Of a stretch of 64,000 bases of DNA, positions 6,968 through 23,641 are shown one piece after another (within the stretch, counting starts at the first letter, position 1; each line of letters opens with the position of its first letter). Source of the DNA: Mucilaginibacter roseus (GTDB taxonomy: Bacteria > Bacteroidota > Bacteroidia > Sphingobacteriales > Sphingobacteriaceae). The translations under genes were made by a program, and so were the position numbers. Where the stretch lies: the NCBI RefSeq assembly GCF_021215455.1, contig NZ_JAJPWV010000003.1, positions 62,001-126,000 on the forward strand, read 5' to 3'. The notes beneath the pieces were generated by a model that was not told where the DNA came from, searched no databases, and was given only the letters and a program-made list of their open reading frames with translations.

Positions 6968-7014
6968 TATGCTTAGCCTGAAAATGATCCCGGTCACTTT
7001 TCAGGCTGAGCATA
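6968..7014. repeat. 17-bp inverted repeat enclosing an FNR-like box
   Basis: The arms are 6968-6984 and 6998-7014 (17 nt each, one mismatch). The 13-nt interior is exactly the distal FNR-like box plus one base, TGATCCCGGTCAC. The A4 and T4 tracts are at the inner ends of the arms rather than after the stem, so this is not a normal intrinsic terminator, although it lies 6 bp after the araC stop codon. Confidence 0.6.
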
Positions 7015-7050
7015 ATCATTCGCAGATAATCCCGCGTATTATGATATTTG
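6985..7050 (+). promoter_or_regulatory. Tandem FNR-like box promoter of the haem-kinase operon
   Basis: The distal box is TGATCCCGGTCA (6985-6996) and the proximal box TGAGCATAATCA (7007-7018), centres 22 bp apart. The -7 element GATATTTG lies at 7043-7050, its last base 37.5 bp from the proximal centre, one base more than in the other five promoters of this group. The distal box is followed by CTTTT. The layout predicts autoactivation of the sensor-regulator pair. Confidence 0.7.
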
Positions 7051-7074
7051 TGCTCAATATCATATTTTAACCGC

Positions 7075-8265
7075 ATGGAGAACGCTGCCTTGTTAAATGC
7101 AATTATTCAAAATGCCATTGATGGTATCATTACTATTGATGAGCGAGGCCGGGTCGAGTCGATCAACCCGTCAGCGTGCAGGCTGTTTTTGTATGCGCCT
7201 GACGAGGTAGTTGGGAATAATATTGCCATGCTGATGCCCCCGCCTGACCGCGAGCAGCACGATAGCTATATACACCGTTATCAGCGCACCGGGCAAGCAC
7301 ACATTATTGGTATCGGTCGTGAAGTGCAGGGCTTACGAAAAGATGGAACCGTATTTCCGTTCAGGCTGGCGGTGAGTGAGGTGCAATACTCGGGCCGAAA
7401 AATATACACCGGTTTTATACATGATCTGAGTCGCGAAAAAAAGGCAGAAGAACGCCTGCGCGAATATGCTGCCAACCTGGAACAACAAGTGCAGGAGCGC
7501 ACCCAATCTCTCAAAAACACAGTTGATGAGCTTCAGATAGCCAAGGAAGAGGTAAGCCAATCGCTGGAAAAGGAAAAGGAATTGGGGCAACTGAAAAGCC
7601 GTTTCGTTTCCATGGCTTCGCATGAGTTCCGAACACCCTTAAGCGCTATCCAGCTTTCGGCCGTGCTTATCGAAAAATATGCCTCGCAACTTAACAATCC
7701 GAACATCAGCAAGCATATCAACAAAATAAAGGGCTCGATAGGTAACCTCACCAGTATACTGAATGATTTTTTGTCGTTAGAGCGCCTTGAGGCAGGCAAG
7801 GTAGAACCTGTATTTACCCCCTTTGATATCGTGAAATTTTCTGAAGAGATAACGGAGGAGATGCAGATGATAGCTAAAGAAGCACAAAACATCGTTTACC
7901 AGCATACCGGTACTACCAGTATGGTAAGCCTTGACCAGGGCTTGCTACGTAACTGCATCATTAACCTTATTAGCAACGCTATAAAATACAGCGGCGAGCA
8001 TACTTTTATTGAATTTAATACAGAATTAACTGATGATCAACTCATCATCATTATAAAAGATAACGGCATAGGCATCCCCGAAAGCGACCAAAAACATTTG
8101 TTCGAGGCTTTCTTCAGGGCGCACAATACCGGCAACATACCGGGTACCGGCCTGGGGCTTAATATTGTGGCAAGGTATGCCACATTAATGAACGGACAAA
8201 TAGCATTTGAAAGCAAGATAAACCAGGGTACATCATTCACTTTAGCATTTCCGGTAAAAGCATGA
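7075..8265 (+). CDS. fixL: FixL-like haem-PAS oxygen-sensing histidine kinase
   Basis: The protein has 396 residues from the ATG at 7075; an in-frame TTG at 7048 is possible but would lie inside the promoter. A PAS domain (residues about 5-120) carries the residues that define haem-binding FixL: His62 (proximal haem ligand, Bradyrhizobium H200), Arg68 (R206), His76 (H214) and the distal Arg82 (R220) in HIIGIGREVQG. A coiled coil (LEQQVQERTQSLKN) follows. The HisKA H box is ASHEFRTPLSAIQ with His183, and the ATPase domain has NLISNAIKY, DNGIGIPE and GTGLGLNIV. It should be a soluble cytoplasmic kinase, active when deoxygenated, by analogy with FixL. The stop overlaps the response regulator start by 4 bp, so the two are partners. 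Confidence 0.9.
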   Translation: MENAALLNAIIQNAIDGIITIDERGRVESINPSACRLFLYAPDEVVGNNIAMLMPPPDREQHDSYIHRYQRTGQAHIIGIGREVQGLRKDGTVFPFRLAVSEVQYSGRKIYTGFIHDLSREKKAEERLREYAANLEQQVQERTQSLKNTVDELQIAKEEVSQSLEKEKELGQLKSRFVSMASHEFRTPLSAIQLSAVLIEKYASQLNNPNISKHINKIKGSIGNLTSILNDFLSLERLEAGKVEPVFTPFDIVKFSEEITEEMQMIAKEAQNIVYQHTGTTSMVSLDQGLLRNCIINLISNAIKYSGEHTFIEFNTELTDDQLIIIIKDNGIGIPESDQKHLFEAFFRAHNTGNIPGTGLGLNIVARYATLMNGQIAFESKINQGTSFTLAFPVKA

Positions 8266-9311
8266 CAACTATATTGATCATTGAAGACAACAACGACATC
8301 AGGGAAAGTACCGCGGAGATATTAGAACTCAGTGGCTACAAGGTGCTTCAAGCTAACAACGGTAAGGCAGGTGTTGACCTCGCCTTTCAGCATAAACCCG
8401 ACCTGGTTCTTTGCGATATTATGATGCCCGAGCTCGATGGTTATGGCGTACTATACATGCTGGGCAAAAACGCGGAAACAGCGGGCACGCCCTTTATCTT
8501 TCTGACGGCCAAGGCCGAGCGGATAGATTTTAGAAAAGGTATGGAGATGGGTGCTGATGATTACCTGACCAAACCCTTTGATGATATTGAGCTGCTGAAC
8601 GCCATTGAATCGCGGCTGAAAAAGAAACAGCGCCAGGAGGAGTACTACAATCAATCGATAGATAAGCTGGAGCAACTGGCAAGCGGCAACGGGCAAGGCC
8701 TGGCCGAGCTTAAAGGCATGATAGCCGGCAGAAAAGTACGCCAGATAAAAAAGAAACAGATACTTTATTACGATGGCGATACCCCGCAAGGCCTTTACCT
8801 GGTGCTTGAGGGTAGCGTAAAAACCATTAAAATTGCCGAGGATGGCCGCGAACTCTTAACCGGCCTTTACCGTAATGATGATTACCTGGGAATACATGCC
8901 CTGCTTTTAGATGAAAGCTATACCGATACCGCCGAGGCTGTTGAAGATTCGGCCGTGTGCCTGCTGCCGAGGGATATGACGCTGAACCTGCTTAACAAAT
9001 ACCCGGATGTGGGGCAGCAATTCATCCGCATATTGGCCAACAACGTGCGCGAAAAGGAGGAGCAGTTAATTGAGCTGGCCTATAATTCTGTACGTAAACG
9101 TTTGGCGCAGGTGCTTATCCGCCTGAGTAAGCAATCAACTGATCCGGCGCAGTTCAAAATATCACGCGATGAACTGGCCGCCATGGCAGGCATGGCTACT
9201 GAAACGGTTAGCCGTACCCTTACCGATTTTAAGGAAGAAGGCTCAATAGAAAAAAAAGGCAGCCAGATAACCATACTGGATATGAACCGCCTGGTAAAAA
9301 TGAAAAACTGA
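8262..9311 (+). CDS. Receiver domain fused to an FNR/CRP-type DNA-binding module
   Basis: The protein has 349 residues. Residues 1-120 form a complete receiver: acidic pair at E8/D9, phosphoacceptor Asp52 (CDIMMPELDG), Thr82 and Lys104. A linker helix leads to a cNMP-binding-like beta-roll (about 150-270) and a Crp-type winged helix (about 275-345). The roll lacks the cAMP pocket Arg-Ser pair, and only two Cys occur in the protein, so it is neither a cAMP receptor nor an Fe-S FNR. The recognition helix TETVSRTL contains E314-x-x-S317-R318, the FNR signature that reads TGAT half-sites; CRP has R-E-x-x-x-R instead. Control by phosphorylation from the haem kinase is therefore the simplest reading. 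Its stop codon overlaps the distal box of the next promoter. Confidence 0.88.
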   Translation: MTTILIIEDNNDIRESTAEILELSGYKVLQANNGKAGVDLAFQHKPDLVLCDIMMPELDGYGVLYMLGKNAETAGTPFIFLTAKAERIDFRKGMEMGADDYLTKPFDDIELLNAIESRLKKKQRQEEYYNQSIDKLEQLASGNGQGLAELKGMIAGRKVRQIKKKQILYYDGDTPQGLYLVLEGSVKTIKIAEDGRELLTGLYRNDDYLGIHALLLDESYTDTAEAVEDSAVCLLPRDMTLNLLNKYPDVGQQFIRILANNVREKEEQLIELAYNSVRKRLAQVLIRLSKQSTDPAQFKISRDELAAMAGMATETVSRTLTDFKEEGSIEKKGSQITILDMNRLVKMKN

Positions 9312-9373
9312 CGAATATCATTTTTTGTACTGACGGTACGCATGTTTTGGCTACTGCAACAAGGCTAACTTTG
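9309..9373 (+). promoter_or_regulatory. Tandem FNR-like box promoter of ldhA-hemN
   Basis: The distal box TGACGAATATCA (9309-9320) begins in the stop codon of the response regulator. The proximal box TGACGGTACGCA (9331-9342) is centred 22 bp downstream. The -7 element TAACTTTG (9366-9373) is a perfect TAnnTTTG and ends 36.5 bp from the proximal centre, placing a predicted start near 9378. A T6 tract lies between the boxes. Confidence 0.8.
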
Positions 9374-9390
9374 TAGCAAAGCATTAGCAA

Positions 9391-10419
9391 ATGAAAGTTG
9401 TAGCCTACAGTATAAAAGCTTTTGAAAAGGAATTCCTGGCAAAATCCAATCAAAAGAAACATGATATCACCCTCATATCAAACCCGTTAAGTATTGAAAC
9501 GGCCGCCTACGCGCAAGGTAAGGATGCCGTAGTTATATTTACCAATGATGATGCCTCAGCCCCGGTTATTGATAAACTGGCGGATATGGGTATTAAATAT
9601 ATTGCCACCCGCTCCGTAGGTACCGATCATATTGACAAAGTTGCTGCAGGCGAAAGGGGCATTAAGCTGGCCAACGTACCCATCTACTCACCACAAGCCA
9701 TTGCCGAACATACCCTGGCGCTTGCCCTCGCCCTTAGCAGGCACATACCTGTAGCCCACCAGCATAGTATAAATTTTGATTTTAAGCTGGATGACCTGAT
9801 CGGTTTTAATTTTTATGGTAAAACCGTTGGGCTGATCGGTTTGGGGCATATCGGCCTGGCAACAGCCGCCGTTTTTAAAGGGTTGGGTTGCCGTGTTATT
9901 GGTTATGATGTGAGCAAACCCGACCGCTTGCCCGATATTGAGTTTGCTCCGCTGGATGAATTGCTTAAGCAATCTGACGTTATATCATTGCACGCGCCGC
10001 TTACACCGGATACTTTTCATATCATCAACACTGAAAACATCGCCAAAATGAAACCGGGTGTTATGCTGCTTAATACTTCACGTGGTGGGTTGATTGACAC
10101 AGAATCAGCCCTGCTGGCAATAAACACCGGGCAAATAGGCTACTTAGGTTTGGATGTTTACGAAAACGAAAAAGGTCTGTTTTTCCAGGACCATACACAC
10201 GATGCGCAAAAGGATAGCCTGCTTACCCGTTTAATGGCTCATCCCAATGTGATTGTTACCCCACATCAGGCATTTTTGACTAACGAGGCTTTACAGCAGA
10301 TTTGCGATCAAACCATTAAAAACCTCGACCTATGGCAGCAAAACAAATGCACCGGCAACGCCTGTGCCTGCGCCAACAGTTGCCGCACCGAAGTGGTGCC
10401 TGTTAAAATCATCGCCTAA
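9391..10419 (+). CDS. ldhA: D-lactate dehydrogenase (NAD-dependent 2-hydroxyacid family) with Cys-rich tail
   Basis: The protein has 342 residues. The Rossmann motif is GLIGLGHIGLATAAVF, with catalytic-domain signatures SVGTDHID, NTSRGGLIDTE (substrate Arg), GLDVYENE (Glu) and TPHQAF (His). It should reduce pyruvate to D-lactate with NADH, restoring NAD when respiration is limited, which fits the low-oxygen promoter. The unusual part is the C-terminal extension after the normal end of the fold, with C320, C325, C327 and C331 (C-x4-C-x-C-x3-C) followed by RTEVVPVKIIA. This could bind a metal or be redox-sensitive; I cannot tell. hemN follows after 12 bp and is probably co-transcribed. Confidence 0.88.
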   Translation: MKVVAYSIKAFEKEFLAKSNQKKHDITLISNPLSIETAAYAQGKDAVVIFTNDDASAPVIDKLADMGIKYIATRSVGTDHIDKVAAGERGIKLANVPIYSPQAIAEHTLALALALSRHIPVAHQHSINFDFKLDDLIGFNFYGKTVGLIGLGHIGLATAAVFKGLGCRVIGYDVSKPDRLPDIEFAPLDELLKQSDVISLHAPLTPDTFHIINTENIAKMKPGVMLLNTSRGGLIDTESALLAINTGQIGYLGLDVYENEKGLFFQDHTHDAQKDSLLTRLMAHPNVIVTPHQAFLTNEALQQICDQTIKNLDLWQQNKCTGNACACANSCRTEVVPVKIIA

Positions 10420-10431
10420 AAGCCTAAAGCC

Positions 10432-11799
10432 ATGCCCGTACCCGAAGCACTCACCGATAAATATAATGTTGCCGCGCCGCGCTACACTAGTTACCCTACT
10501 GTACCTTATTGGGATAATACTCCATTTGATGCCGCGGAATGGGAACGCGCTGTAAAGGCATCATTTACACAAACCAATAATACCGATGGCATCAGCCTTT
10601 ACATACACCTGCCCTATTGCGAAAGCCTGTGTACTTATTGCGGCTGCAATACCCGCATTACCAAAAATCACCGTGTAGAGCAACCCTATATTGAGGCCGT
10701 ACTAAAGGAATGGGGAATGTATAAAGCCATCTTTAATGAGCAGCCCGTAATACGTGAGATACATTTGGGTGGCGGAACGCCAACCTTTTTTAGTCCGCAA
10801 AATTTGCAGTTGCTGATAAACGGATTACTTGATGATACCGCCATCCACCCGAATGCTGAATTTGGTTTTGAGGCGCACCCGGGGAATACCACTACGGAGC
10901 ATTTACAAACCCTGTACGATCTGGGTTTTCGCAGGCTGAGCCTCGGCATTCAGGATTTTGACCCGAAGGTACAATTTATCATTAACCGCATACAGAGTTT
11001 TGAGCAGGTAAAAAAAGTAACGGACGAGGCACGGGAAATAGGTTATGACTCTATCAATTACGACCTGATCTATGGCCTGCCGCTGCAAACTGTAGCGAGC
11101 ATGGCTGATACCCTGCACCAAGTTGCCTTGCTGATGCCCGACCGTATCGCCTTTTACAGCTACGCTCATGTGCCCTGGATAAAACCCGGCCAGCGCCGCT
11201 ATACCGAAAAAGATCTGCCCGACGCGTTTTTGAAACGTAAACTGTATGATCTGGGTTGCGAGTTGTTTCAAAACATCGGCTATCATGATATTGGCATGGA
11301 CCATTTTTCACTAAGTACCGATAGCCTTTACCGGGCTGAACAAGGTGGTCGTTTACACCGCAACTTTATGGGTTATACCTATCAATATACCCAATTGCTT
11401 ATCGGCCTGGGGGTATCATCCATTAGTGACTCATGGTATGCTTACGCGCAGAATGCTAAGAAGATAGATGAGTACCTGGATCTGATCAATGCCGGCCGGT
11501 TGCCACTTATCAAGCTGCATCAATCTACCGATGAGGATATGCTGTTGCGCAGCCATATATTGGATATTATGTGCAAGGGCCAAACCCGCTGGGATCATGA
11601 TGCCCAACCGTCTGCCGGGCTGTCAAAAAGCATTGAAAGGTTGGAGCCATTAGTGAATGACGGCCTGATAGAACTCAACTCCCGCTGCCTGAAGGTTACA
11701 CCGCTTGGCAAACGCTTTTTACGCAATATATGTATGGCTTTTGACGAAAGGCTGTGGCAAAACAAGCCAGCAACGCAATTATTCAGCATGAACGGATAA
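10432..11799 (+). CDS. hemN: Oxygen-independent coproporphyrinogen III oxidase (radical SAM)
   Basis: The protein has 455 residues, the normal length for HemN. The radical SAM cluster motif is HLPYCESLCTYCGCN with C63, C67, C70 and the extra C72 that true HemN proteins carry, unlike HemW, which helps the call. LGGGTPTFFS and FEAHPGNTT supply the SAM-binding loops, and the C-terminal HemN domain (DHFSLSTDSLYRAEQGGRLHRNFMGYTY) is present. It decarboxylates coproporphyrinogen III to protoporphyrinogen IX without O2, supplying haem for the cbb3 oxidase and the haem kinase under low oxygen. It is the second gene after ldhA and is followed by a bidirectional terminator. Confidence 0.95.
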   Translation: MPVPEALTDKYNVAAPRYTSYPTVPYWDNTPFDAAEWERAVKASFTQTNNTDGISLYIHLPYCESLCTYCGCNTRITKNHRVEQPYIEAVLKEWGMYKAIFNEQPVIREIHLGGGTPTFFSPQNLQLLINGLLDDTAIHPNAEFGFEAHPGNTTTEHLQTLYDLGFRRLSLGIQDFDPKVQFIINRIQSFEQVKKVTDEAREIGYDSINYDLIYGLPLQTVASMADTLHQVALLMPDRIAFYSYAHVPWIKPGQRRYTEKDLPDAFLKRKLYDLGCELFQNIGYHDIGMDHFSLSTDSLYRAEQGGRLHRNFMGYTYQYTQLLIGLGVSSISDSWYAYAQNAKKIDEYLDLINAGRLPLIKLHQSTDEDMLLRSHILDIMCKGQTRWDHDAQPSAGLSKSIERLEPLVNDGLIELNSRCLKVTPLGKRFLRNICMAFDERLWQNKPATQLFSMNG

Positions 11800-11840
11800 T
11801 AACATATAATCAAACCTGAACGCAATCAATTAACAATGAA

Positions 11841-11866: not shown

Positions 11867-11870
11867 GTGC

Positions 11871-13646
11871 TTATGCTATGGCATTCAGTTGCGCTTCGCA
11901 GGTTTGCAGCATGGTTTGCATCTCCTGTAAATACTCAAGCGTTTGGTTGCTTATCTGCGGTATCAGCGCCTTATAATAATCAATACCCTGCTGTAGCTGC
12001 TGCCTGAACTTGTCAAGGTATTTTTCCTTCTTAGTATTCATGTTATTTACCGAGCGGGCAACTTCTTTGTTCAGGTACTCCAGGTAAAGGTTCAGCTCGT
12101 TAATGAAAAGGTTGGGGCGGCTCACATTTTTAAGCAGGTTAAGTTTGCCGTAGATATGCTTTACCATTTCATCTAACGAGTATGTAGCCTTAAAATAAGC
12201 CAGGTTTGGGCCGGGGCAAATGGCTACCGCCTTGTTTTCGCGGGGTTTTAGCAGGTTGTTTTTGATATAGGCTGATACGGCCAATCCTTCGCAAAGGCAT
12301 ATTTTTTCGGTTACTTCCTGTACCTGGCGGTATAATTCATCGCCGGGCAGATTGGCAGCCATAAGCTGTTCAATTTTTAAATGCTGGTACTGGCGCGATG
12401 CCGTACAGATAGGCTCGGCCGTAAACTCCGTATTGGTACACAGGTATTTTTTAGTACAAGGGCTCCCCGGACGATGCGCGGCTATACGCTTCAAACGCAA
12501 CTGCTGTATGCTTGCCGGCTTAAAGTTATTGAAGAGCACACCCAGCGGCGATGCCGCGCTTACGTAAAAATCATCCGGCTTTGCCGCGGTTAACTGGTGC
12601 AGTGTTTCATCATCAACATTGGTAGCTTCAGGAACCAGCAAGAACGGACTGCCCCAGCCTGTAGCATCAAGCGCGTAGTGCTCCAGCAAAAAATTATTTT
12701 CGGCTGCCGTACCTATACCACCCTGAACACTGATGCGGATTGACGGATTATTGATAACGCTGTAGCCTTTGCTACTTAATGCCGGTAAGTATATAGCCTG
12801 TAACTCATCTACCATTTCCTGCCGCTTTTCGTTGAATCCCTGTAATATGGGGCCAAGCAATAAGCCATCGGTAGCAAAGGCATGGCCACCGCAATTCAGG
12901 CCCGACTCGATACGGAACTCATGCACCCAAATACCTTTTTTGGCCAAAAATTTCGCTTGTATCAATGCCGAGCGGTAATCGCTCACCTTCAGTATCACCC
13001 GCTTGCGGGTGTTGCCATCAACGTCCGGAAAAAAATCACGGAACTCCTCGAGGTAACTATATAAGCGCGGGTTCATACCGGCTGATAGTATGACCGAGGC
13101 ATTCAGGTCACTTTGTGCAAAACCACGCAGGGCGGCTAAGGCATCGGTATTAACCTCGCCGGTGCTATGGCCGTCCTTGTCATAGTTCATCTTATCAACC
13201 TTGGCCATAATATTTACATCAATACTGCCGGATTGCATTTCGCTGCGCAATTGCTGCTCTAATTTGTGTTTCAGATCGACATCAGTGGTCTGTTGCATCA
13301 GTAGGTATTTTTGTTTCAATGCCGAGCCATCGGGCAGCATATCAAAATAACGGTCAATATCGTGGCCCTCGCCAAACGGCTGTTGCTTGAGCGCGGTCAT
13401 TTGCCGGGCAACGTAGGTGTTCAGCATATCCAGATACGCGGTTATGCGCCGGGCACGGTAATCGTGCTCATTTTTTTTGATCGGGATGTATTCATCGTTG
13501 TGCTCACGTATGTGAAACTCGCGCATACGCTCTACCAGTTCATCATCAACTATTGAAACCACGGATGATATACCGTATCGCGCTACTTTGAGCGGTGTAT
13601 CAATTGAAAAGGCCAGCCCTAAAACGGGGATATGAAAGTTGTGCAT
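11871..13646 (-). CDS. Unknown 591-residue protein with NPD/FMN-barrel-like region and Cys clusters
   Basis: I do not recognise a characterised family. The N-terminus reads IPVLGLAFSIDTPLKVARYG and the middle part resembles FMN-dependent TIM barrels of the nitronate monooxygenase/PfaD type: GLNCGGHAFATDGLLLGP near residue 250, then ISVQGGIGTAAENNFLLEH, where GGIGT would hold the FMN phosphate, and GWGSPFLLVPEAT. A Cys-rich segment follows (about residues 393-416: PGSPCTKKYLC and EPICTAS), then KICLCEG (about 450) and AICPGP (about 478), and a long C-terminal helix region. An oxygen-independent redox enzyme is a reasonable guess because the gene lies in the low-oxygen island downstream of a tandem-box promoter. 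The substrate is unknown. A terminator-like hairpin lies between it and the upstream membrane gene. Confidence 0.6.
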   Translation of the reverse strand: MHNFHIPVLGLAFSIDTPLKVARYGISSVVSIVDDELVERMREFHIREHNDEYIPIKKNEHDYRARRITAYLDMLNTYVARQMTALKQQPFGEGHDIDRYFDMLPDGSALKQKYLLMQQTTDVDLKHKLEQQLRSEMQSGSIDVNIMAKVDKMNYDKDGHSTGEVNTDALAALRGFAQSDLNASVILSAGMNPRLYSYLEEFRDFFPDVDGNTRKRVILKVSDYRSALIQAKFLAKKGIWVHEFRIESGLNCGGHAFATDGLLLGPILQGFNEKRQEMVDELQAIYLPALSSKGYSVINNPSIRISVQGGIGTAAENNFLLEHYALDATGWGSPFLLVPEATNVDDETLHQLTAAKPDDFYVSAASPLGVLFNNFKPASIQQLRLKRIAAHRPGSPCTKKYLCTNTEFTAEPICTASRQYQHLKIEQLMAANLPGDELYRQVQEVTEKICLCEGLAVSAYIKNNLLKPRENKAVAICPGPNLAYFKATYSLDEMVKHIYGKLNLLKNVSRPNLFINELNLYLEYLNKEVARSVNNMNTKKEKYLDKFRQQLQQGIDYYKALIPQISNQTLEYLQEMQTMLQTCEAQLNAIA

Positions 13647-13728: not shown

Positions 13729-14076
13729 TTAAACTATTACAATGATGATCATTGCCACGTGAATTAAAATACTGGCCGCGAACAGCTTGAGCACGGTACG
13801 GATACCGCCACCAGCCATATTGGCGATCAGGTTTGCAAAAAAGCAGATCATGGTTACGGCTAACACCGCGGCAGAGCCGTCAAAGTAGTAGCTCAATACT
13901 GCCGGGATGGGTAAAAATATTACGCCATGCACCATCAGTACTAAAAAGAACCATAAGGTTTGGTTGCTTTTTTGCGTGTCGGCAAACTCATTAAACTTAT
14001 CCCACAAGTTAAAATGCAGGGTTGCCGGTTTATGTTCATTTATAAATTGCGGGGTTATTGTTTTTATAGTTGCCAT
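13729..14076 (-). CDS. Small integral membrane protein in the low-oxygen island, unknown
   Basis: The protein has 115 residues. A hydrophilic N-terminus (about 40 residues) is followed by three predicted membrane helices: LWFFLVLMVHGVIFLPIPAVL, AAVLAVTMICFFANLIANMAG and LKLFAASILIHVAMIIIVIV. Two His residues fall inside helices 1 and 3 (VHGV, IHVAM), which could bind haem or metal, but no family match is evident. It is the first gene behind a tandem-box promoter and lies upstream of the 591-residue gene, so a role in low-oxygen membrane or redox physiology is likely by context only. Confidence 0.7.
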   Translation of the reverse strand: MATIKTITPQFINEHKPATLHFNLWDKFNEFADTQKSNQTLWFFLVLMVHGVIFLPIPAVLSYYFDGSAAVLAVTMICFFANLIANMAGGGIRTVLKLFAASILIHVAMIIIVIV

Positions 14077-14101: not shown

Positions 14102-14166
14102 CAAAATTGCGGATAAACACGTGCCTGCACCATGACAGCCATCATTACAAAAAGTGACCTTACGCA
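14102..14166 (-). promoter_or_regulatory. Tandem FNR-like box promoter of the small membrane gene
   Basis: Read on the minus strand, the distal box is TGCGTAAGGTCA (14155-14166), the proximal box TGATGGCTGTCA (14133-14144) and the -7 element CAATTTTG (14102-14109). Centres are 22 bp apart and the -7 end is 36.5 bp from the proximal centre. CTTTTT follows the distal box. Confidence 0.75.
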
Positions 14167-16688: not shown

Positions 16689-17579
16689 TTAAATAGACGC
16701 CGTTTTAGCAGCAGCGTCATCTTTATAAATATCGCCCTGCGGCTCTTTGGCTCCGGCAGGTTTAGTTCCGTATATTGACTTAATGTAGCTGGCCACATCG
16801 GCAATTTGTTTAGGGGTAAGCTGCTTTTCCCAGTTGGGCATACCCTTGGCCTGTACTCCGTATTTAATAGTTTTAAATACATCGTTTATTTTGCCGCCAT
16901 GCAGCCAGTACTCATCGGTAAGGTTAGGCCCAACAACGCCCTGCCCCTTCTCGCCATGGCAGGCGGCGCAATGGGTTTTAAATACCGTTGCGCCCGATTG
17001 CAACACTGCGCCGTCTGTTGAAAGAGTGACTGAATTTTCATCCACCCGGTTGGCTGATTTTGCCAGGAAGGCTTCCTTCTCCTTGTTAGCCACGGTTATT
17101 TCGGTTTGATATTCCTGATCCTGTAATTGCCCTATGCCGAATACATGGTAAACAAGCAGGTACCCGATAGCGAATGCGATGGTGATATAGAACAAGCCCA
17201 TAAACCAGGCGGGCGTTGGGTTATTCAGTTCCTTAATACCGTCAAAATCATGCTCGGTAAGCAGTGATTGCTCTTCGGCCATTGGCCTTAATGAGAGGAG
17301 CTTGTTCACCAGGCTGTTCTTTGGTTTAGGAGGTATTACTTCGGCTTCAGCTACAGCAGACATGTTTTTAGCTTCAGCACCCAGTAGCAGGCGGGTAAGT
17401 ACCTTAAATGTGCGCAGCAATACCAGCATGGTTATTACAAACAATACCAGCATCAGCATAATGGCTCCGTAGCCAATGTAGTTCATGGTATCAACAGGCA
17501 CCAACGTATCATCGGCTGCCATTACAGGGGCAGTGCCTAAGGTTGTTATCAGCAAAAACGCGGTCAATAGCTTTTTCAT
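16689..17579 (-). CDS. ccoP: CcoP subunit of cbb3 oxidase with a single c-type haem motif
   Basis: The protein has 296 residues. A signal-like helix ends at APVMAAD, then come a membrane helix (IMLMLVLFVITMLVLL), the FixP_N-like segment DFDGIKELNNPTPAWFMGLF with a second helix, and one cytochrome c domain with C204-A-A-C207-H208 and the axial Met in GVQAKGMPNWEKQL. Classical proteobacterial CcoP has two CxxCH motifs; only one is present here. Electron entry must therefore use fewer haems. It overlaps ccoQ by 4 bp. Confidence 0.9.
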   Translation of the reverse strand: MKKLLTAFLLITTLGTAPVMAADDTLVPVDTMNYIGYGAIMLMLVLFVITMLVLLRTFKVLTRLLLGAEAKNMSAVAEAEVIPPKPKNSLVNKLLSLRPMAEEQSLLTEHDFDGIKELNNPTPAWFMGLFYITIAFAIGYLLVYHVFGIGQLQDQEYQTEITVANKEKEAFLAKSANRVDENSVTLSTDGAVLQSGATVFKTHCAACHGEKGQGVVGPNLTDEYWLHGGKINDVFKTIKYGVQAKGMPNWEKQLTPKQIADVASYIKSIYGTKPAGAKEPQGDIYKDDAAAKTASI

Positions 17580-17767: not shown

Positions 17768-17772
17768 GGCGC

Positions 17773-19905
17773 TTAGTTATTAGCGGTTTTAGTTACTTTA
17801 ATATCAGTACCCAGGCGTTGCAGATAGGCTATCAGGGCTACTATCTCGCGGTCGCTTTGTACCTTTATCTTGTCTTTAGCCAGGTTATCGGCAATGCCTT
17901 TGGCCTGTTTATCCAGCTCGGTGTTGGCCTGCTTGTCGTAACCGGCGGCATACGGTACACCCAATGTGCGCATGGCATTTATTTTAGATGCCGTGGTGGT
18001 GGTGTCGAGCTTTTGGTTGATGAGCCAATCGTAGTTCGGCATGATACTGCCCGGCGACATCAGCCTTGGATCAAGCATGTGGTTATAGTGCCAGGCGTTG
18101 CTGTACTTGCCCCCCTCGCGCTGCAAATCGGGCCCGGTACGTTTTGATCCCCAAAGAAAAGGGTGATCGTAAACAAATTCACCGGCCTTACTGTATTCGC
18201 CATAACGCTCCGTTTCAGACCGGAAAGGCCTTACCGTTTGCGAGTGACAGTTAACGCAACCCTCGCGGATGTATATATCACGGCCCTGCAATTCCAGCGG
18301 CGTATAGGGTTTTACACTGGCAATGGTAGGCACGTTTGAGGAGATGGTCATGGTTGGGATCAGCTCAATGATACTGCCTATCAGTATCACCAGTAATGAA
18401 AGTACCATCAGTTGTATCGGCTTACGCTCCAATACGCGGTGCCAAAAGTTGTCGCCCTCGTTATGGGCTACAAAAACTTTTTCCAACGGCATCGCTTCGG
18501 CAGGCTCCTGCGCTACCAATTTGCCAACGGCCATGGTTTTAGCCAGGTTATAAGCCATTACAATAACACCCACCAGGTACAACCCGCCACCAACAGCACG
18601 CATTACATGCATCGGGATGATGCGCAGCGTGGTTTCTAAAAAGGTGGGGTATTTCAAGATACCCTCCGGTGTAAATTCTTTAAGCATCAGGCCCTGGGTA
18701 AAACCGGCCCAGTACATCGGTACCGCGTAAAACAATATGCCCAGCGTACCTATCCAAAAGTGGAATGAGGCCAATTTGGTGGAGTAAAGCTGTGTGCGGT
18801 AAATTCTCGGTATCAACCAGTATAGTATGGCAAAGGTTAAAAAGCCGTTCCAGCCTAAAGCGCCAACATGCACGTGGGCTACTATCCAGTCAGTAAAGTG
18901 GCCAATGGCGTTTACTTGTTTTAATGATAGCATTGGCCCCTCAAAGGTGGCCATACCATAGGCCGTTAAACCAACCACCATAAATTTAAGTACCACATCA
19001 TCGCGCACCTTATCCCAGGCACCGCGCAGGGTAAGCAACCCGTTGATCATGCCGCCCCAGCTTGGCGCTATCAGCATAATAGAAAATACGATACCTAATG
19101 ATTGTGCCCAGCTTGGTAAGGTGGTATATAGCAAGTGGTGTGGACCCGCCCATATATAAATAAATATCAGCGCCCAAAAGTGCAGTATACTCAACTTATA
19201 TGAATACACCGGGCGGTTGGCCATCTTAGGCAAAAAGTAATACATCATGCCCAGGTAAGGCGTGGTTAAAAAGAAAGCCACCGCGTTATGCCCGTACCAC
19301 CATTGCACCAGCGCATCCTGAACGCCGGCATACAGGTAGTAGCTTTTTAAACCAGATATAGGCAACTCGAACGAATTAACGATATGCAGCACCGCTATGG
19401 TTACAAACGTGGCAATGTAAAACCAGATGGCCACGTACAGGTGCCGCTCGCGGCGTTTAATGATGGTACCGAACATGTTGATGCCAAATACCACCCATAT
19501 CAGCGTAATGGCAATATCAATAGGCCATTCCAGCTCGGCATACTCGTGCGAGGTGGTGAAACCCAGCGGTAGCGTAATAACTGCCGATACGATGATGAGC
19601 TGCCATCCCCAAAAATGAATCTTGCTCAGGGCATCACTAAACATGCGGGCCTTTAGCAGGCGTTGCAGCGAATAGTAAACGCCCATAAAAATGGCGTTGC
19701 CCACAAACGCGAAGATAACCGCGTTGGTATGCAGCGGGCGTATGCGGCCAAAGGTGGTGTACTGGTTGCCCATGTTCATGCCGGGTTTAAACAGCTGCAT
19801 GGCTACCAGTAGCCCTACTGTCATGCCGATTATCCCCCAAACAATGGTGGCAATTCCAAAATTTCGTACAATCTTGTTATCGTAGTAAAATTTTTCGGGT
19901 TGCAT
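17773..19905 (-). CDS. ccoNO: Fused CcoN-CcoO: catalytic and monohaem subunits of cbb3 oxidase
   Basis: The protein has 710 residues. Residues 1 to about 470 are the twelve-helix haem-copper catalytic subunit, with GRIRPLHTNAVIFAFVGNA, WWYGHNAVAFFLTTPYLGMMYYFLP (CuB His region), WAGPHHLLYTTLPSW and IVAHVHVGALGWNGF (haem ligands). The remaining part is CcoO, anchored by LMVLSLLVILIGSIIELIP, with haem motif C550-V-N-C553-H554 and RTGPDLQREGGKYSNAWHYNHM. In proteobacteria these are two proteins; fusion is known in Bacteroidota. The complex reduces O2 with very high affinity and pumps protons across the inner membrane. It has its own tandem-box promoter in the gap after ccoS. Confidence 0.95.
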   Translation of the reverse strand: MQPEKFYYDNKIVRNFGIATIVWGIIGMTVGLLVAMQLFKPGMNMGNQYTTFGRIRPLHTNAVIFAFVGNAIFMGVYYSLQRLLKARMFSDALSKIHFWGWQLIIVSAVITLPLGFTTSHEYAELEWPIDIAITLIWVVFGINMFGTIIKRRERHLYVAIWFYIATFVTIAVLHIVNSFELPISGLKSYYLYAGVQDALVQWWYGHNAVAFFLTTPYLGMMYYFLPKMANRPVYSYKLSILHFWALIFIYIWAGPHHLLYTTLPSWAQSLGIVFSIMLIAPSWGGMINGLLTLRGAWDKVRDDVVLKFMVVGLTAYGMATFEGPMLSLKQVNAIGHFTDWIVAHVHVGALGWNGFLTFAILYWLIPRIYRTQLYSTKLASFHFWIGTLGILFYAVPMYWAGFTQGLMLKEFTPEGILKYPTFLETTLRIIPMHVMRAVGGGLYLVGVIVMAYNLAKTMAVGKLVAQEPAEAMPLEKVFVAHNEGDNFWHRVLERKPIQLMVLSLLVILIGSIIELIPTMTISSNVPTIASVKPYTPLELQGRDIYIREGCVNCHSQTVRPFRSETERYGEYSKAGEFVYDHPFLWGSKRTGPDLQREGGKYSNAWHYNHMLDPRLMSPGSIMPNYDWLINQKLDTTTTASKINAMRTLGVPYAAGYDKQANTELDKQAKGIADNLAKDKIKVQSDREIVALIAYLQRLGTDIKVTKTANN

Positions 19906-19938
19906 AATATTGCGGTTAGTTCAAATAAATTAATGGTG

Positions 19939-20003
19939 TAAAATTACCCGGACTGCCCTGCCCGGCACGTGATGCCCGTTAGCCAAAAACATGATACAGA
20001 TCA
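19939..20003 (-). promoter_or_regulatory. Tandem FNR-like box promoter directly before ccoNO
   Basis: Read on the minus strand, the distal box is TGATCTGTATCA (19992-20003, within a 14-bp palindrome at 19991-20004 that overlaps the ccoS stop), the proximal box TAACGGGCATCA (19970-19981) and the -7 element TAATTTTA (19939-19946). Centres are 22 bp apart and the -7 end is 36.5 bp from the proximal centre. The proximal box has a weak upstream half. This would boost ccoNO over ccoI-ccoS. Confidence 0.65.
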
Positions 20004-20162
20004 TTTTTCGGCTTCGCTGGTAGTATCATCATCCAGCAAAATGCGCACAGATGGAGTGTAAAGATCATTGTGCTGACCCTTGCGCTGCGCCCAGAAAAAG
20101 GCGCACAAAAACCCCAGCGCCAGCAGTATGCTGCACCCTATTAAAAAATAAATTATGCTCAT
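20001..20162 (-). CDS. ccoS: CcoS/FixS oxidase maturation protein (53 residues)
   Basis: This short gene is easy to miss. It encodes 53 residues starting MSIIYFLIGCSILLALGFLC, one membrane helix followed by AFFWAQRKGQHNDLYTPSVR and an acidic tail LLDDDTTSEAEK. The A-x-x-W-x-x-x-x-G-Q-x-x-D-L pattern is the CcoS/FixS signature. CcoS is required for cofactor insertion into cbb3 oxidase and normally follows CcoI. Its ATG overlaps the ccoI TGA in an ATGA (20159-20162), which supports the gene. Confidence 0.93.
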   Translation of the reverse strand: MSIIYFLIGCSILLALGFLCAFFWAQRKGQHNDLYTPSVRILLDDDTTSEAEK

Positions 20163-22546
20163 AACAACTTGCGTTTTTTTGCTGCCACATGGGTGGCAAT
20201 ACTGGTGAATGATATGATGGTGGCCGTACTCAGCGGCATCAGGATGGCCGCGGTAAGTGGCGATAGTTTGCCCGTTACCGCGAAGCTTAAACCGATGAGG
20301 TTATAGGTAAGCGATATAAAAAAGGATATATGGATCACCTTCACGGTATCCTTGGCAAATTTTAAAAACCTCGGAAAACTTTTTAACGACCGCCCATCCA
20401 GGATGGCATCACTGCCCGGCGAAAAGTTGTTCACGTTATCGGTAATGGCTATACCCAGGTCGCTTTGCTTTAACGCGCCTGCATCATTCAGCCCATCGCC
20501 CAGCATACTTACTTTTTTGCCCCGGCTTTGCAATTCTTTGATAAAATCGAGCTTTTGCTGTGGCGATTGCCTGAACAGCATATTTTGGCTGTGATTAAAA
20601 TAAGGCAGCAACTCGTTACGCTCATGATCCTGATCGCCGGACAATAAATAAAGTTTGTACTTAGGTGATAACGCTGCCACATCCTCCAATCCCTCACGGT
20701 ACTGGTGATTAAAGCTGTAATAACCCTGGTAAACTTCGTCAATAACTACATGTACCTTGGTGGTGTTGCTTAGCTCATAGCCCCCGTCCACCACAAAATC
20801 GCTGCTGCCTATGGCAACCAAATGTTCGACAACCACGGCTCGGATGCCTTTGCCTGGTACTTCTTTATAAGCCGATACCGGCAAAATAGCCCCTACCCCC
20901 AAATAAGCGCAAATTTGCCTGCTAAGCGGATGCCCGGAGTTGATGCAAACGCTTTGCACCAGTTGCCGCTGTGCAGCGGTTAGCGTGGTGCAGTCGGTAA
21001 GTATTTTATTGTTGCTGCTGGTTATGGTGCCTGTTTTATCAAATACTAATGTATCGATGCGGGCTAACTGCTCAACCACTGCGGTATTTTTGAGGTAAAA
21101 AAAGTTGCGGTCGAATACGCTCAAAGCGGCCGACATGGTGAACGGTGTGCTCAGCGCCAGGGCGCAGGGGCAGGCCACTATCAGCACGGCGGTAAATGCG
21201 GATAATCCACGCTGCCAATCGAACGGTAACCAAAACAACAGCGAACCAAAGGCGATAATGAGCAGTACGATAGAAAAATGCTTGCTCACCCGCTCGTTAA
21301 AGGTTTGCATCCGGTTATCCTGACTGCGGGTAAAAGCCTCATTGTTCCACAACTGGGTAAGATAGCTTTGCGATACGGGTTTTACAATTTCCATCTCTAA
21401 AGCCTCGCCCATCTGCCGACCACCGGCATAGATGATCTCGCCAAGCGTTTTATTTACGGGTGCCGATTCGCCGGTTACAAAACTAAAATCAATCATGGCG
21501 TTGCCTTTTAATAAGATGGCATCGGCAGGAATGATCTCGTTATTACGGATGCGGATGCGCTGACCCACTTTCAGATCAGCCAATGGAAGCGGCTTCTCCC
21601 CTTCTTCGCTTATCACCTGCACCGCCACCGGGAAGAATGACCGGTAATCGCGCTCAAAAGATATATGGTAATAAGTTTTACGCTGAACGAACTTGCCTAC
21701 CAGCAGAAAGAATACCAGGCCGCAAAGGGTATCGGCAAAGCCGGGACCGGTATGAGTGAGTATCTCGGCAACGGTGCGTATAAACAATACGGCGATTCCT
21801 AATGCCAACGGGAAATCAATATTCAGAACCTTATTTTTCAGGTTGTGGTAAGCCGATGTAAAGTACTCGGTACCGCTGTAAAAGGTTACCGGCAGAGCAA
21901 ATACGATATTAAGCCAGCCAAAAAACTGGCGGAAACTTTCTTCTTGTCCTGACAAACCCAGGTATTCCGGGAAACTGAGCAGCATCACGTTACCAAAGCA
22001 AAATCCCGCAACGGCTATTTTGCGTACCAGGTTATCCTTTTGCTCGGTAGATTGTTTTTTGACCACATCCTGCAGGTTAATGAGCGGTTCGTAGCCAATA
22101 TCAAACAGCAGTTCAACCACTTGGCGCAGGGTTATCTTATTATTATCAAAACGGATGTTCACCTGTTTCTTCAGGAAATCGATACGGCTGTAATAAATAG
22201 CAGGGTTAAGGCGGTGCAACTGTTCCAGCAACCAGATGCACGAGCTGCAATGGATGTAAGGAATATAAAAAGTAACGATGGTTATACCGCCATCTGTAAA
22301 ATCAACCAGGTCGCTAATGATCTTCGGCTCGTCCAGGTACTCAAAGCGCTTGTCGGTACGGGCGCGGTTCGCTCCGGGATGCTCGTTGTAATTATAATAA
22401 TTACACAACCCGCTTTGCGATAGTACCTGGTACACGCCCCGGCAGCCTACGCAGCAAAACTCCTTATCGTCAAATTGATAGGTGGTTTCTTCACAATCCT
22501 GGCCGCAGTGGTAACATGTTGATTTTACAGTGGTATTAACTAACAT
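20159..22546 (-). CDS. ccoI: CcoI/FixI copper P1B-type ATPase for cbb3 assembly
   Basis: The protein has 795 residues. The N-terminal Cys-rich region (CYHCGQDCEE, FCCVGCRGVYQVL) is typical of CcoI, followed by a heavy-metal-associated domain with PYIHCSSCIWLLEQL. The membrane CPC motif is IVACPCALALSTPF (about residue 458), phosphorylation motif DKTGTIT, nucleotide-domain GHPLSRQI (HP motif) and GDGLNDAGALKQSDLGIA. It exports copper across the inner membrane for the CuB centre. It is the first gene of the cco operon and is preceded by a tandem-box promoter. Confidence 0.95.
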   Translation of the reverse strand: MLVNTTVKSTCYHCGQDCEETTYQFDDKEFCCVGCRGVYQVLSQSGLCNYYNYNEHPGANRARTDKRFEYLDEPKIISDLVDFTDGGITIVTFYIPYIHCSSCIWLLEQLHRLNPAIYYSRIDFLKKQVNIRFDNNKITLRQVVELLFDIGYEPLINLQDVVKKQSTEQKDNLVRKIAVAGFCFGNVMLLSFPEYLGLSGQEESFRQFFGWLNIVFALPVTFYSGTEYFTSAYHNLKNKVLNIDFPLALGIAVLFIRTVAEILTHTGPGFADTLCGLVFFLLVGKFVQRKTYYHISFERDYRSFFPVAVQVISEEGEKPLPLADLKVGQRIRIRNNEIIPADAILLKGNAMIDFSFVTGESAPVNKTLGEIIYAGGRQMGEALEMEIVKPVSQSYLTQLWNNEAFTRSQDNRMQTFNERVSKHFSIVLLIIAFGSLLFWLPFDWQRGLSAFTAVLIVACPCALALSTPFTMSAALSVFDRNFFYLKNTAVVEQLARIDTLVFDKTGTITSSNNKILTDCTTLTAAQRQLVQSVCINSGHPLSRQICAYLGVGAILPVSAYKEVPGKGIRAVVVEHLVAIGSSDFVVDGGYELSNTTKVHVVIDEVYQGYYSFNHQYREGLEDVAALSPKYKLYLLSGDQDHERNELLPYFNHSQNMLFRQSPQQKLDFIKELQSRGKKVSMLGDGLNDAGALKQSDLGIAITDNVNNFSPGSDAILDGRSLKSFPRFLKFAKDTVKVIHISFFISLTYNLIGLSFAVTGKLSPLTAAILMPLSTATIISFTSIATHVAAKKRKLL

Positions 22547-22567
22547 AATGGCTCGCTTTAGTTAATA

Positions 22568-22632
22568 CAAAAATGTGCTAAGCGCCCCACCCTTTAAATG
22601 ATGCAACAAGGGCTTAAAAGTGATGTGCATCA
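22568..22632 (-). promoter_or_regulatory. Tandem FNR-like box promoter of the cco operon (ccoI)
   Basis: Read on the minus strand, the distal box is TGATGCACATCA (22621-22632), the proximal box CTTGTTGCATCA (22599-22610, downstream half intact) and the -7 element CATTTTTG (22568-22575). Centres are 22 bp apart and the -7 end is 36.5 bp from the proximal centre. CTTTT follows the distal box. Confidence 0.75.
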
Positions 22633-22645
22633 TTTTTAAGCCCTT
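22608..22645. repeat. 12-bp inverted repeat enclosing the distal ccoI box
   Basis: AAGGGCTTAAAA (22608-22619) and TTTTAAGCCCTT (22634-22645) are perfect inverted repeats, and the 14-nt interior contains TGATGTGCATCA. It lies just after the universal stress gene stop, so it may also act as a transcript end signal, but the T tract is inside rather than after the stem. The same arrangement occurs at 6968-7014. Confidence 0.6.
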
Positions 22646-22659
22646 TAAGTAGATGTGTT

Positions 22660-23529
22660 TTAAAAATTAGGCGCGATAAAACGTTTGCTGGCACACGGGT
22701 AAACCAACAGCGGTATATCAATATGCTTGGCGGCGTGGTGGGTATGGCTGCGGCTGAACAGCTGATCAAAAAAATTATGCTCGCGGTGTACAATAGCCAG
22801 CATATCAACCAATCCGTGCTCGGCTATCCATTCCAGTCCGTGGTTAACGTCAGCATTTTGCACATGGCGGTAAAACACATTGCTGTAGTTTATGCGGTTG
22901 GTAACATCGCGCAGGTAGGCGTCAACCTTACCTTCGTATTGGTAACTGTTGTTGGTTACATGGAACAGCACCAACTCTGCCTTATAGTATCGCGCCAGGC
23001 TGGCAACCGACTGCACCACCTCTATTTCCTGATCGCTCAGATCAGTAGCTATAGCTATGCGCCTGATTAGTTTGTACGCATACTTTGGTGGCACCAGCAG
23101 CAGCGGCACCGTTGTTTTGCCTATCATATCATTACTGGTACTGCCCAGAAAAAACTTTTGTACATCCCCCGCGCCGGATGCGCCCATCACCGTTAGGCAA
23201 ACCCTGTCCTCAACCGCTTTTTCGTTTATCATTTCGGCTACGTTACCTGCGGAGCTTTCACAGGCGGTGAGCACCTCAACGCGTCGGGTTTCATCGGCAT
23301 GGGTGAGTTGGCCGGCCAGTTTGTTTAATTCGGCGGTGGTGTTTTCAACCACGGCATTATAATCATACAGCGGCCAGGCCACTTGCGGTGCCAGGGGCGA
23401 TTCAGCCGCGATGCGGAAACTGTTGAACAACTTTACACGAGCGCCTATGGCTCCCGCTAATTTAACGGCATATTGTGCGGCGTTTTCGGCAGCAGCCGAA
23501 AAATCGGTAGGGACGAATATGGTTTTCAT
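22660..23529 (-). CDS. Tandem universal stress protein (two UspA domains)
   Basis: From the ATG at 23527-23529 the protein starts MKTIFVPTDFSAAAENAAQY and has 289 residues; the frame extends upstream to 23577 but would enter the promoter. It holds two Usp folds: domain 1 (about 1-150) with FVPTDFS and VMGASGAGDVQKFFLGSTSN, and domain 2 (about 155-285) beginning IAIATDLSDQE. Domain 1 keeps a G-A-S-G...GS-T-S-N ATP-binding-like loop. Usp genes are commonly induced by oxygen limitation, and the tandem-box promoter fits. It is upstream of, and co-directional with, ccoI, with the hairpin between them. Confidence 0.85.
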   Translation of the reverse strand: MKTIFVPTDFSAAAENAAQYAVKLAGAIGARVKLFNSFRIAAESPLAPQVAWPLYDYNAVVENTTAELNKLAGQLTHADETRRVEVLTACESSAGNVAEMINEKAVEDRVCLTVMGASGAGDVQKFFLGSTSNDMIGKTTVPLLLVPPKYAYKLIRRIAIATDLSDQEIEVVQSVASLARYYKAELVLFHVTNNSYQYEGKVDAYLRDVTNRINYSNVFYRHVQNADVNHGLEWIAEHGLVDMLAIVHREHNFFDQLFSRSHTHHAAKHIDIPLLVYPCASKRFIAPNF

Positions 23530-23576
23530 AACGATGAGTTTTAATTCGTTTACAATATCACTAATGGATATTGCCA

Positions 23577-23641
23577 CAAATATCAGCCCAAGTAAGTTAG
23601 GAAATAGTGATGAGGGTCAGGGGATTGTGTGATGGGAAGCA
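23577..23641 (-). promoter_or_regulatory. Tandem FNR-like box promoter of the universal stress gene
   Basis: Read on the minus strand, the distal box is TGCTTCCCATCA (23630-23641), the proximal box TGACCCTCATCA (23608-23619) and the -7 element GATATTTG (23577-23584), identical to the -7 of the haem-kinase promoter. Centres are 22 bp apart and the -7 end is 36.5 bp from the proximal centre, predicting a start near 23572. Confidence 0.75.

Follow-up and report, generated by a model that had tools for sequence, protein, structure and literature searches.

The six promoters predicted in a 64,000-nucleotide stretch of the Mucilaginibacter roseus genome (hereafter the window) raise the question of whether they obey a common layout rule and, if so, which protein reads it. 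Activator-promoter rules are hardly known in Bacteroidota. A sequence-only reading of the window had claimed that these promoters share tandem FNR-like boxes at fixed positions. The elements and genes are listed here, with ranks and scores from the position matrix described below.

6985..6996, +, distal box, kinase/regulator operon promoter (matrix rank 4 in the window, 32.6 bits)
7007..7018, +, proximal box, kinase/regulator operon promoter
7043..7050, +, -7 element, kinase/regulator operon (24-bp spacer where the other promoters have 23; start predicted at 7055)
7075..8265, +, FixL-type haem-PAS histidine kinase (the frame is open from TTG 7048, with an ATG in frame at 7075, 20 nt downstream of the predicted start)
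8262..9311, +, REC-CRP, receiver plus cNMP-binding fold plus FNR-type helix-turn-helix (helix TETVSR), candidate regulator acting at the boxes
9309..9320, +, distal box, ldhA promoter (rank 1, 49.1 bits; overlaps the end of the REC-CRP gene)
9331..9342, +, proximal box, ldhA promoter
9366..9373, +, -7 element, ldhA promoter (predicted start 9378)
9391..10419, +, ldhA by similarity, D-2-hydroxyacid (lactate-type) dehydrogenase; hits to D-lactate models stay under the cut-offs
10432-11799, hemN, downstream of ldhA
14155..14166, -, distal box, 115-aa gene promoter (rank 2, 43.2 bits)
14133..14144, -, proximal box, 115-aa gene promoter
14102..14109, -, -7 element, 115-aa gene promoter (predicted start 14097)
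13729..14076, -, 115-aa gene (by eye, some stretches are hydrophobic; product without a match in Pfam or NCBIfam)
19992..20003, -, distal box, ccoNO promoter (rank 3, 42.1 bits)
19970..19981, -, proximal box, ccoNO promoter
19939..19946, -, -7 element, ccoNO promoter (predicted start 19934)
17773..19905, -, ccoNO, fused cbb3 oxidase subunits I/II
16689-17579, 15283-16674, 14856-15296 and 14173-14859, genes after ccoNO: ccoP, ccoG, ccoH and a DsbD_2 gene
22621..22632, -, distal box, ccoI promoter (rank 6, 28.2 bits)
22599..22610, -, proximal box, ccoI promoter (weak)
22568..22575, -, -7 element, ccoI promoter (predicted start 22563)
20159..22546, -, heavy-metal P-type ATPase, called ccoI by its position beside ccoNO
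23630..23641, -, distal box, usp promoter (rank 5, 28.6 bits)
23608..23619, -, proximal box, usp promoter
23577..23584, -, -7 element, usp promoter (predicted start 23572)
22660..23529, -, usp, universal stress protein (open frame from GTG 23577; in-frame ATG 23529)

All 18 elements quoted earlier (distal box, proximal box and -7 element of each promoter) were located in the window, and the span 6985-23641 covers all six sites. The centres of the two boxes are 22.0 bp apart in 6/6 promoters, and the proximal centre lies 36.5 bp from the last -7 base in five promoters and 37.5 bp in one, that of the haem kinase, exactly as had been read. RTCA is likewise present in 11 of the 12 boxes, the ldhA proximal box being the exception. 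The box core is TGA-N6-TCA and the FNR-type nature of the boxes is supported. The distal box is the stronger one and is flanked by A- and T-tracts, and the 10-bp gap between the boxes is T-rich. The ccoI proximal box (CTTGTTGCATCA) differs at 3 of 6 consensus bases and that of ccoNO at one. The genes behind the promoters form a set that fits oxygen limitation, as had been proposed; cbb3-type respiratory oxidases are used at low oxygen in other bacteria. The -7 element is the Bacteroidota TAnnTTTG, with no obvious -33 element. Start positions were carried over from Flavobacterium psychrophilum, whose start sites have TAnnTTTG at -12 to -5 (PMC9723704). Together with the window geometry, this puts an FNR/CRP-type palindromic box at -41.5, as in a class II FNR-type promoter, and supports the earlier placement of the boxes at -41.5 and -63.5.

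Such a pattern could have arisen from weak boxes selected by eye: the ccoI and ccoNO proximal boxes deviate from consensus, one spacer is 1 bp off, and the ccoI layout is absent in orthologues. However, a position matrix built from relatives only, with the window sequence excluded, ranked the same six sites as the top six in the window (28.2-49.1 bits), and the next scores (11.8, 11.6, 9.3, 8.5 and 6.1) were the same sites read in reverse. The maximum in 20 shuffles of the window within 50-bp blocks was 13.5 bits. Because the window-free matrix recovers them, chance is refuted for the set, and the spacing counts in relatives, the orthologue conservation and the scans of the own genome also speak against this explanation, to which we assign next to no probability. 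The six-promoter layout is real, and its non-randomness, formerly argued from the window itself, is borne out. In 800 kb of the own genome, sampled as 40 stretches, one of which was chosen knowing that it held a site upstream of an OmpW-family gene, only that site exceeded 13 bits, the next scoring 12.4. Across the whole genome, a fixed pattern with up to 3 mismatches gave 11 matches against 2 with the reversed control, with the haem-kinase site counted twice (both strands) and the ccoI site missed, and a boxes-only pattern with up to 1 mismatch gave 10 places against 2 control places. Five of these 10 fall inside the 16.7-kb stretch (binomial P 2.5e-10), a value that is post hoc because the stretch was defined by the finding itself. 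The OmpW-family site, found by scanning, is the seventh in this genome; the searches made here brought out no more than about seven, so that the regulon looks small.

The spacing is equally strict in relatives. Exact box pairs in 80 of their loci (1.5 Mb) numbered 84 at 22 bp and 9 at 23 bp, with 0-4 for every other spacing between 12 and 60 bp, among them 2-4 each at 32-33 or 43-44 bp and none at 21 bp. The assertion that both boxes occupy the same DNA face therefore holds only approximately, as 22 bp makes about 2.1 helical turns, and at 21 bp, the value nearer to two turns, these loci contain no exact pair. The -7 box follows 23 bp past the proximal box: in these 80 loci, the gap from an exact single box to an exact TAnnTTTG was 23 bp in 55 cases and 45 bp in 73, with 9 cases each at 22 and 44 bp and 0-3 at each other gap from 5 to 43 bp. 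Among 142 exact boxes followed at 23 bp by a -7 element (at most 1 mismatch), a distal box (at most 1 mismatch) stands at 22 bp in 99, against 0-7 at each other spacing from 14 to 45 bp, and 43 are without such a distal box. Outside the window's family, 23 loci contained 8 exact pairs at 22 bp and at most one at any other spacing, and the same layout was found at hundreds of places among related bacteria. Conservation upstream of the same genes was upheld for most of the promoters, with the layout at 18/20 ccoNO, 25/27 full-length ldhA, 33/67 kinase and 9/27 usp orthologues and the tandem site at 9/18 orthologues of the 115-aa gene, but not for ccoI (0/6); a 591-aa gene carried it in 11/19 orthologues. 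The two-box rule is not universal, because one family (f4) has a single box at ccoN: in its 12 fusion-bearing genomes, which lack tandem sites, ccoNO was found in 10, and 9 of these carry a single box, at -41.5, that lacks a distal partner 22 bp away.

This layout is likely read by REC-CRP, encoded in the cluster next to the kinase, and a tandem site precedes the operon of these two genes. The kinase combines a haem-PAS domain with HisKA/HATPase, and its PAS can be aligned with PDB sequences of FixL (E 6e-32), the HDxY..RY..HIIGIGR stretch being conserved (here HDSYIHRY...HIIGIGR); haem binding is predicted, and we take the residue roles to be proximal His and distal Arg. The NCBIfam rhizobial FixL model scored below its cut-off (168 of 850 bits). 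REC-CRP belongs to the CRP/FNR superfamily (PF00027 7.6e-18, PF13545 2e-18, PF00325 1.8e-7), and its helix TETVSR agrees with the FNR recognition code, a helix of the E..SR kind. It is also a two-component response regulator by its Asp/Thr/Lys residues and partner kinase, with phospho-transfer predicted. Across fusion proteins these residues are retained (Asp 109/109, Thr 108/109, Lys 109/109), and a kinase gene lies directly 5' of the fusion gene in 96 of 109 loci, a few of which are the same gene from two collections; among the remaining 13, one locus stops at the fusion gene. Beyond the kin of the window, the kinases beside many fusion proteins have a PAS that aligns poorly to FixL. In a tree of 60 rows, the 30 fusion proteins formed one group (support 100/99). 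REC-CRP is not a FixJ, having a CRP/FNR-type and not a LuxR/NarL-type output, nor a FixK, which it resembles in lacking a cysteine cluster, as it carries a receiver (NCBIfam FixK model below cut-off, 74.7 of 300). Nor is it a [4Fe-4S] FNR: it has no N-terminal cysteine cluster and only Cys51 and Cys233. In 84/109 fusion proteins a cysteine is kept that aligns with the one in the beta-roll of REC-less FNR relatives, presumably the counterpart of FNR Cys122.

Across genomes, at least two tandem sites were found in 29/43 sampled genomes with the fusion, in 7/42 without it but with a close FNR relative (match to the FNR P0003 at E up to 1e-40), and in 0/211 other sampled genomes (fusion versus no fusion, Fisher 3.6e-23, genomes counted regardless of descent). 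The fusion is neither necessary nor sufficient, because 7 genomes have tandem sites without a REC-CRP match at E up to 1e-40 and the 12 fusion genomes of family f4 lack sites. All 7 contain REC-less FNR relatives, and the own genome encodes a second FNR relative (C1:1100746-1101339, open frame of 234 aa, cysteine-bearing N-terminus). Besides REC-CRP it alone matches PF00325 in this genome, and its match to the REC-less FNR of one genome with tandem sites has E 6.6e-41. This protein, likely an Fe-S one, could bind the boxes as a direct oxygen sensor, with the kinase/REC-CRP operon merely one target. Its helix YETVFR, however, has F where the FNR code has S; moreover, 13 of 16 genomes in which the fusion is the only P0003 match (E up to 1e-20, at most nine candidates scored per genome) still have at least two tandem sites, and REC-CRP is linked to the sites, with one of them before its own operon. 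We regard this alternative as rather unlikely; most likely, the boxes are regulated by the in-cluster receiver-FNR fusion, fed by the haem kinase, and not by a classical Fe-S FNR.

How, then, would two boxes be used? It is probable that two REC-CRP dimers sit on the 22-bp box pair, the fusion likely being switched on by the neighbouring FixL-type haem kinase when oxygen is low. We infer binding, phosphorylation, activation and cooperativity from sequence: at low oxygen the kinase would phosphorylate receiver Asp52, and the phosphorylated protein would dimerise and occupy both boxes. The proximal dimer at -41.5 would touch RNA polymerase as a class II activator, replacing a -33 element, and the distal dimer at -63.5 would help to load it and/or hold the alpha-subunit C-terminal domain in the T-rich gap. 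Positive autoregulation and two dimers would then make the low-oxygen switch a sharp one. So exact a spacing suggests that the dimers are in direct contact, either with each other or with RNA polymerase. Each dimer might instead touch polymerase independently (class II plus class I) without dimer-dimer contact, the 22-bp rule reflecting polymerase geometry. The distance from proximal box to -7 element is indeed as rigid as that between boxes, and T-rich sequence fills the gap where the alpha C-terminal domain could sit. Class I sites, however, usually tolerate several helical phases, a tolerance not matched by the sharp peak of exact pairs at 22 bp, and we hold this version to be possible but the less likely one. 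It is improbable that the distal box tunes or represses, with the proximal dimer activating at mild hypoxia and the distal dimer limiting polymerase contact at deeper anoxia, which would yield a microoxic band-pass. Barnard et al. 2003 reportedly treated tandem-bound FNR, and Green et al. 1998 is said to concern yfiD. E. coli ompW offers a precedent, as FNR activates it at -81.5 and represses it at -126.5 (PMC4886647). Those sites are 45 bp apart, whereas the spacing here is rigid, and the distal box is the stronger one and accompanies 99/142 good proximal sites.

Two REC-CRP dimers on one promoter would depart from several known systems. Like class II FNR/CRP promoters of E. coli, the window promoters have a box at -41.5, the TGA-N6-TCA core and a regulator helix of the E..SR kind; unlike them, they have a Bacteroidota -7 box, no obvious -33 element and, commonly, a second box at a fixed -63.5. 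E. coli also has two sites for one regulator at one promoter in yfiD, ompW and class III promoters; the upstream ompW site represses from 45 bp away (PMC4886647), unlike the window promoters, all at 22 bp. A two-box, 22-bp variant of class II FNR-type activation was not found in the literature searched. The rhizobial FixL-FixJ-FixK cascade shares the FixL-type haem kinase, FNR-type boxes and cbb3 oxidase and assembly gene targets, but here the roles of FixJ and FixK would be fused in one protein, in one step instead of two, and two boxes stand where Table 1 of PMC7888657 gives rhizobial fixNOQP promoters one anaerobox. REC-CRP has DNA-binding and beta-roll domains homologous to those of [4Fe-4S] FNR, with a receiver in place of the N-terminal cysteine cluster.

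More tentatively, and with somewhat more doubt than belief, a large part of the Bacteroidota may share a two-dimer oxygen promoter code, with rigid distances of 22 bp between two FNR-type boxes and 23 bp to the -7 element, that did not change as one sensor replaced another, from Fe-S FNR to the receiver-FNR fusion with other PAS kinases and then to the same fusion with a FixL-type haem kinase. The 22-bp pair would be an obligate cooperative unit, making the promoter respond to regulator occupancy squared; certain lineages would have gone back to one box. The layout offers a testable promoter grammar for Bacteroidota that predicts targets from sequence alone, and its study puts names to a likely oxygen sensor and regulator. 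The ccoN promoter is a natural experiment, since certain lineages have two boxes there and others a single one. The sensor swap, if true, would reveal how strict spacing is kept when the sensor changes.

All the boxes and −7 elements quoted in the sequence-only reading are present in the window, which belongs to a 4.19-Mb genome in 12 contigs, with strand and spacing as it described. The centres of the distal and proximal TGA-N6-TCA boxes are 22.0 bp apart in 6/6 window promoters, and the distance from the proximal centre to the end of the −7 element is 36.5 bp in five promoters, the sixth having 37.5 bp, exactly as had been claimed. A study on F. psychrophilum places the TAnnTTTG box at −12 to −5 relative to mapped starts (PMC9723704). 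Because of this position, the box centres would be located at −41.5 and −63.5, and the placement proposed from the sequence is supported. In-frame ATGs occur 13-43 nt past the predicted transcription starts of the window promoters, and the start of the kinase would accordingly move from TTG 7048 to ATG 7075 and that of usp from GTG 23577 to ATG 23529. The tandem-site promoters show no conserved −33 element. The kinase promoter (window 6985-7050) has a 24-bp gap to the −7 box instead of the 23-bp one, and this is the rarer variant among relatives (21/314 sites).

We counted TGA-N6-TCA pairs at every centre distance of 12-60 bp in 80 loci encoding regulator relatives (1,515,095 bases). These are the best 80 of at least 559 loci found, picked for encoding the receiver-FNR fusion protein (REC-CRP) and hence mutually related, and they underlie the pair, −7 spacing, downstream-gene and orthologue-promoter counts. 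Exact pairs numbered 84 at 22 bp, nine at 23 bp and 0-4 at other distances; with one mismatch allowed, there were 203 pairs at 22 bp versus 2-21 at other distances. At these 203 sites, TAnnTTTG was found exactly 23 bp past the proximal box in 62 exact and 87 one-mismatch cases, and at the neighbouring gaps of 22 and 24 bp in 7 + 10 and 6 + 2 cases (exact + one-mismatch), respectively. Outside the family of the window (23 loci, 92,874 bases), we counted eight exact pairs at 22 bp and at most one at any other distance. A third box 22 bp beyond the distal one accompanied 0/142 exact proximal boxes followed by a −7 box (≤1 mismatch, 44 bp from the proximal box); the only feature in that region is a mild A-rich spot roughly 29 bp upstream of the distal box.

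The 314 tandem sites in relatives formed 270 groups at 75% identity, and a position matrix was built from 223 site groups of relatives, excluding the window sites. With this matrix the six window promoters scored 49.1, 43.2, 42.1, 32.6, 28.6 and 28.2, the next value being 11.8, and the maximum in 20 block shuffles of the window was 13.5. Equal frequency of the pattern in shuffled intergenic sequence, which the sequence-only reading had named as counting against itself, was not seen in these shuffles. Scanning 40 stretches of the same genome (800 kb) gave a single site above 13 bits, at 31.5 (C3:168853-168917), before an OmpW-family gene (PF03922, E 1.2e-39); the stretch with this site had been put among the 40 knowingly, the site having already been found by an earlier pattern search. 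In E. coli, ompW is among the genes that FNR regulates (PMC4886647). Whole-genome pattern counts, spacing counts, the relatives-only matrix and the shuffles rule out a chance origin of the pattern.

Conservation was assessed by seeking the pair plus −7 box upstream of orthologues where 250 bp upstream was available.

Orthologues preceded by the box pair and −7 box
ccoNO: 18/20
ldhA, full-length: 25/27
haem kinase gene: 33/67
591-aa gene: 11/19
115-aa gene: 9/18
usp: 9/27
ccoG: 3/30
REC-CRP gene: 3/79
hemN: 1/39
ccoP: 0/26
ccoH: 0/28
DsbD_2 gene: 0/29

At control spacings the mean count for a gene was 0-2.4, and the highest count at any one spacing was 9. The conservation in relatives anticipated by the earlier reading is supported, except for ccoI, which is found under the pair in 0/6 orthologues. 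The ccoP, ccoH, DsbD_2, REC-CRP and hemN genes probably sit inside operons in relatives. The 591-aa protein is encoded between hemN and the cco cluster (window 11871-13646) and has no Pfam or NCBIfam match.

Across the 80 loci, 137/314 tandem sites precede genes unrelated to those of the window and 18/314 are without a nearby open frame. Pfam searches with 19 group representatives of the 137 unrelated genes returned families including BON, L,D-transpeptidase, YceI, pyridoxamine oxidase, zinc alcohol dehydrogenase, histidine phosphatase, Hsp20, PPDK_N, fumarase, acetate kinase and acetyl-CoA hydrolase; some of the 19 had no Pfam match. The 55 tandem-controlled ldhA-like genes comprise 25 full-length genes and 30 encoding a shortened 'mini-LdhA' of 107-162 aa (e.g. 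L031, L035-L036, L038-L039, L042), mostly directly after the REC-CRP gene. Mini-LdhA keeps D-2-hydroxyacid dehydrogenase residues ~1-100 and 300-342, and the entire NAD-binding domain is absent. A cysteine-rich tail (C..CxC...C type) is present in 18/30 mini-LdhA and 14/25 full-length proteins; the full-length LdhA of the window ends in a cysteine-rich tail too (window 10340-10400), KCTGNACACANSC, which is not known to be usual for a 2-hydroxyacid dehydrogenase.

The first window promoter precedes a FixL-type kinase, whose PAS domain matches FixL structures (E 6e-32), together with REC-CRP, a 349-aa receiver and CRP/FNR protein. Among 109 REC-CRP relatives, the receiver residues Asp (109/109), Thr (108/109) and Lys (109/109) are retained, and 84/109 keep a cysteine at the alignment position of the beta-roll cysteine in REC-less FNR relatives, which we take to be the counterpart of FNR Cys122. 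A kinase lies directly upstream of the fusion in 96/109 loci, with His at the haem-ligand column in 93/96; in most of loci L150-L169 the kinase aligns poorly at this column and looks to have an ordinary PAS domain. In a 60-row tree, the 30 fusion proteins cluster together as a single group (support 100/99). By the class-defining features tested, REC-CRP is not FixJ, FixK or Fe-S FNR.

We searched 296 genomes of the phylum with the tandem pattern (≤1 mismatch) and obtained 210 matches, some being one place on both strands, versus 5 with a reversed control. Counting each genome and ignoring kinship, at least two matches occurred in 29/43 fusion-bearing genomes, in 7/42 genomes that lack the fusion and encode a relative (E ≤1e-40) of P0003, our REC-less FNR query, and in 0/211 others, some of which have lower-scoring FNR relatives (E from 1e-40 to 1e-20); one match was found in 10/211. 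A Fisher test of genomes with versus without the fusion gave 3.6e-23, with the 2x2 and 3-class counts compiled by hand; G283, a receiver-alone match, was entered as no fusion, and in G204, one of the 42, the FNR match is interrupted by stop codons. The 7/42 genomes rule out that tandem boxes are exclusive to REC-CRP, and families f2 and f8 have them both with and without the fusion. A rival explanation is that the second FNR relative of the window's genome regulates the boxes. P0003 carries an FNR-like cysteine cluster; exactly one P0003 match was found in 17 fusion-bearing genomes (n = 16 after omitting G053, whose place was not listed), and G178 has five pattern matches and no P0003 match. 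In ten REC-less relatives inspected, the N-terminal cysteines vary, some having just CxxC and some a third Cys as well (L172, L175, L176, L178, L182, L184, L185, L189), and judging from these residues the cluster type may differ among lineages.

The role of the second box also admits rival readings, in which the distal site is repressing or each dimer meets polymerase independently. The narrow spacing favours a fixed geometry of protein-protein contact; 22 bp is about 2.1 helical turns. The 12 fusion-bearing genomes that gave no pattern match all belong to family f4, which we guess to be Flavobacteriaceae. Of the 10/12 in which ccoNO was found (L191-L200), 9/10 have one exact box, at −41.5, before the −7 box, the gap being 23 bp (8) or 24 bp (1). 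The distal place 22 bp upstream has 3-6 mismatches in these nine promoters, one of which carries a box with two mismatches at 21 bp. Since ccoNO has a single box in these nine, the same promoter exists in one-box and two-box versions. Several f4 genomes (e.g. G103, G107, G134) have a REC-less FNR gene a few kb from ccoNO.

Among the matches listed in the open-licence literature, no paper dealt with FNR boxes in tandem at 22 bp or with FixL paired with REC-CRP in Bacteroidota. At the level of genome comparison, the layout, conservation, linkage and co-occurrence are established. In the mechanism that we propose, low oxygen would activate the haem kinase, and phosphorylated REC-CRP would occupy both boxes and switch transcription on, possibly in a cooperative and steep manner. 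Such a system would resemble class II FNR activation that has FixL as its input and an additional second box, and the roles that are separate in FixJ and FixK would be combined in one protein.
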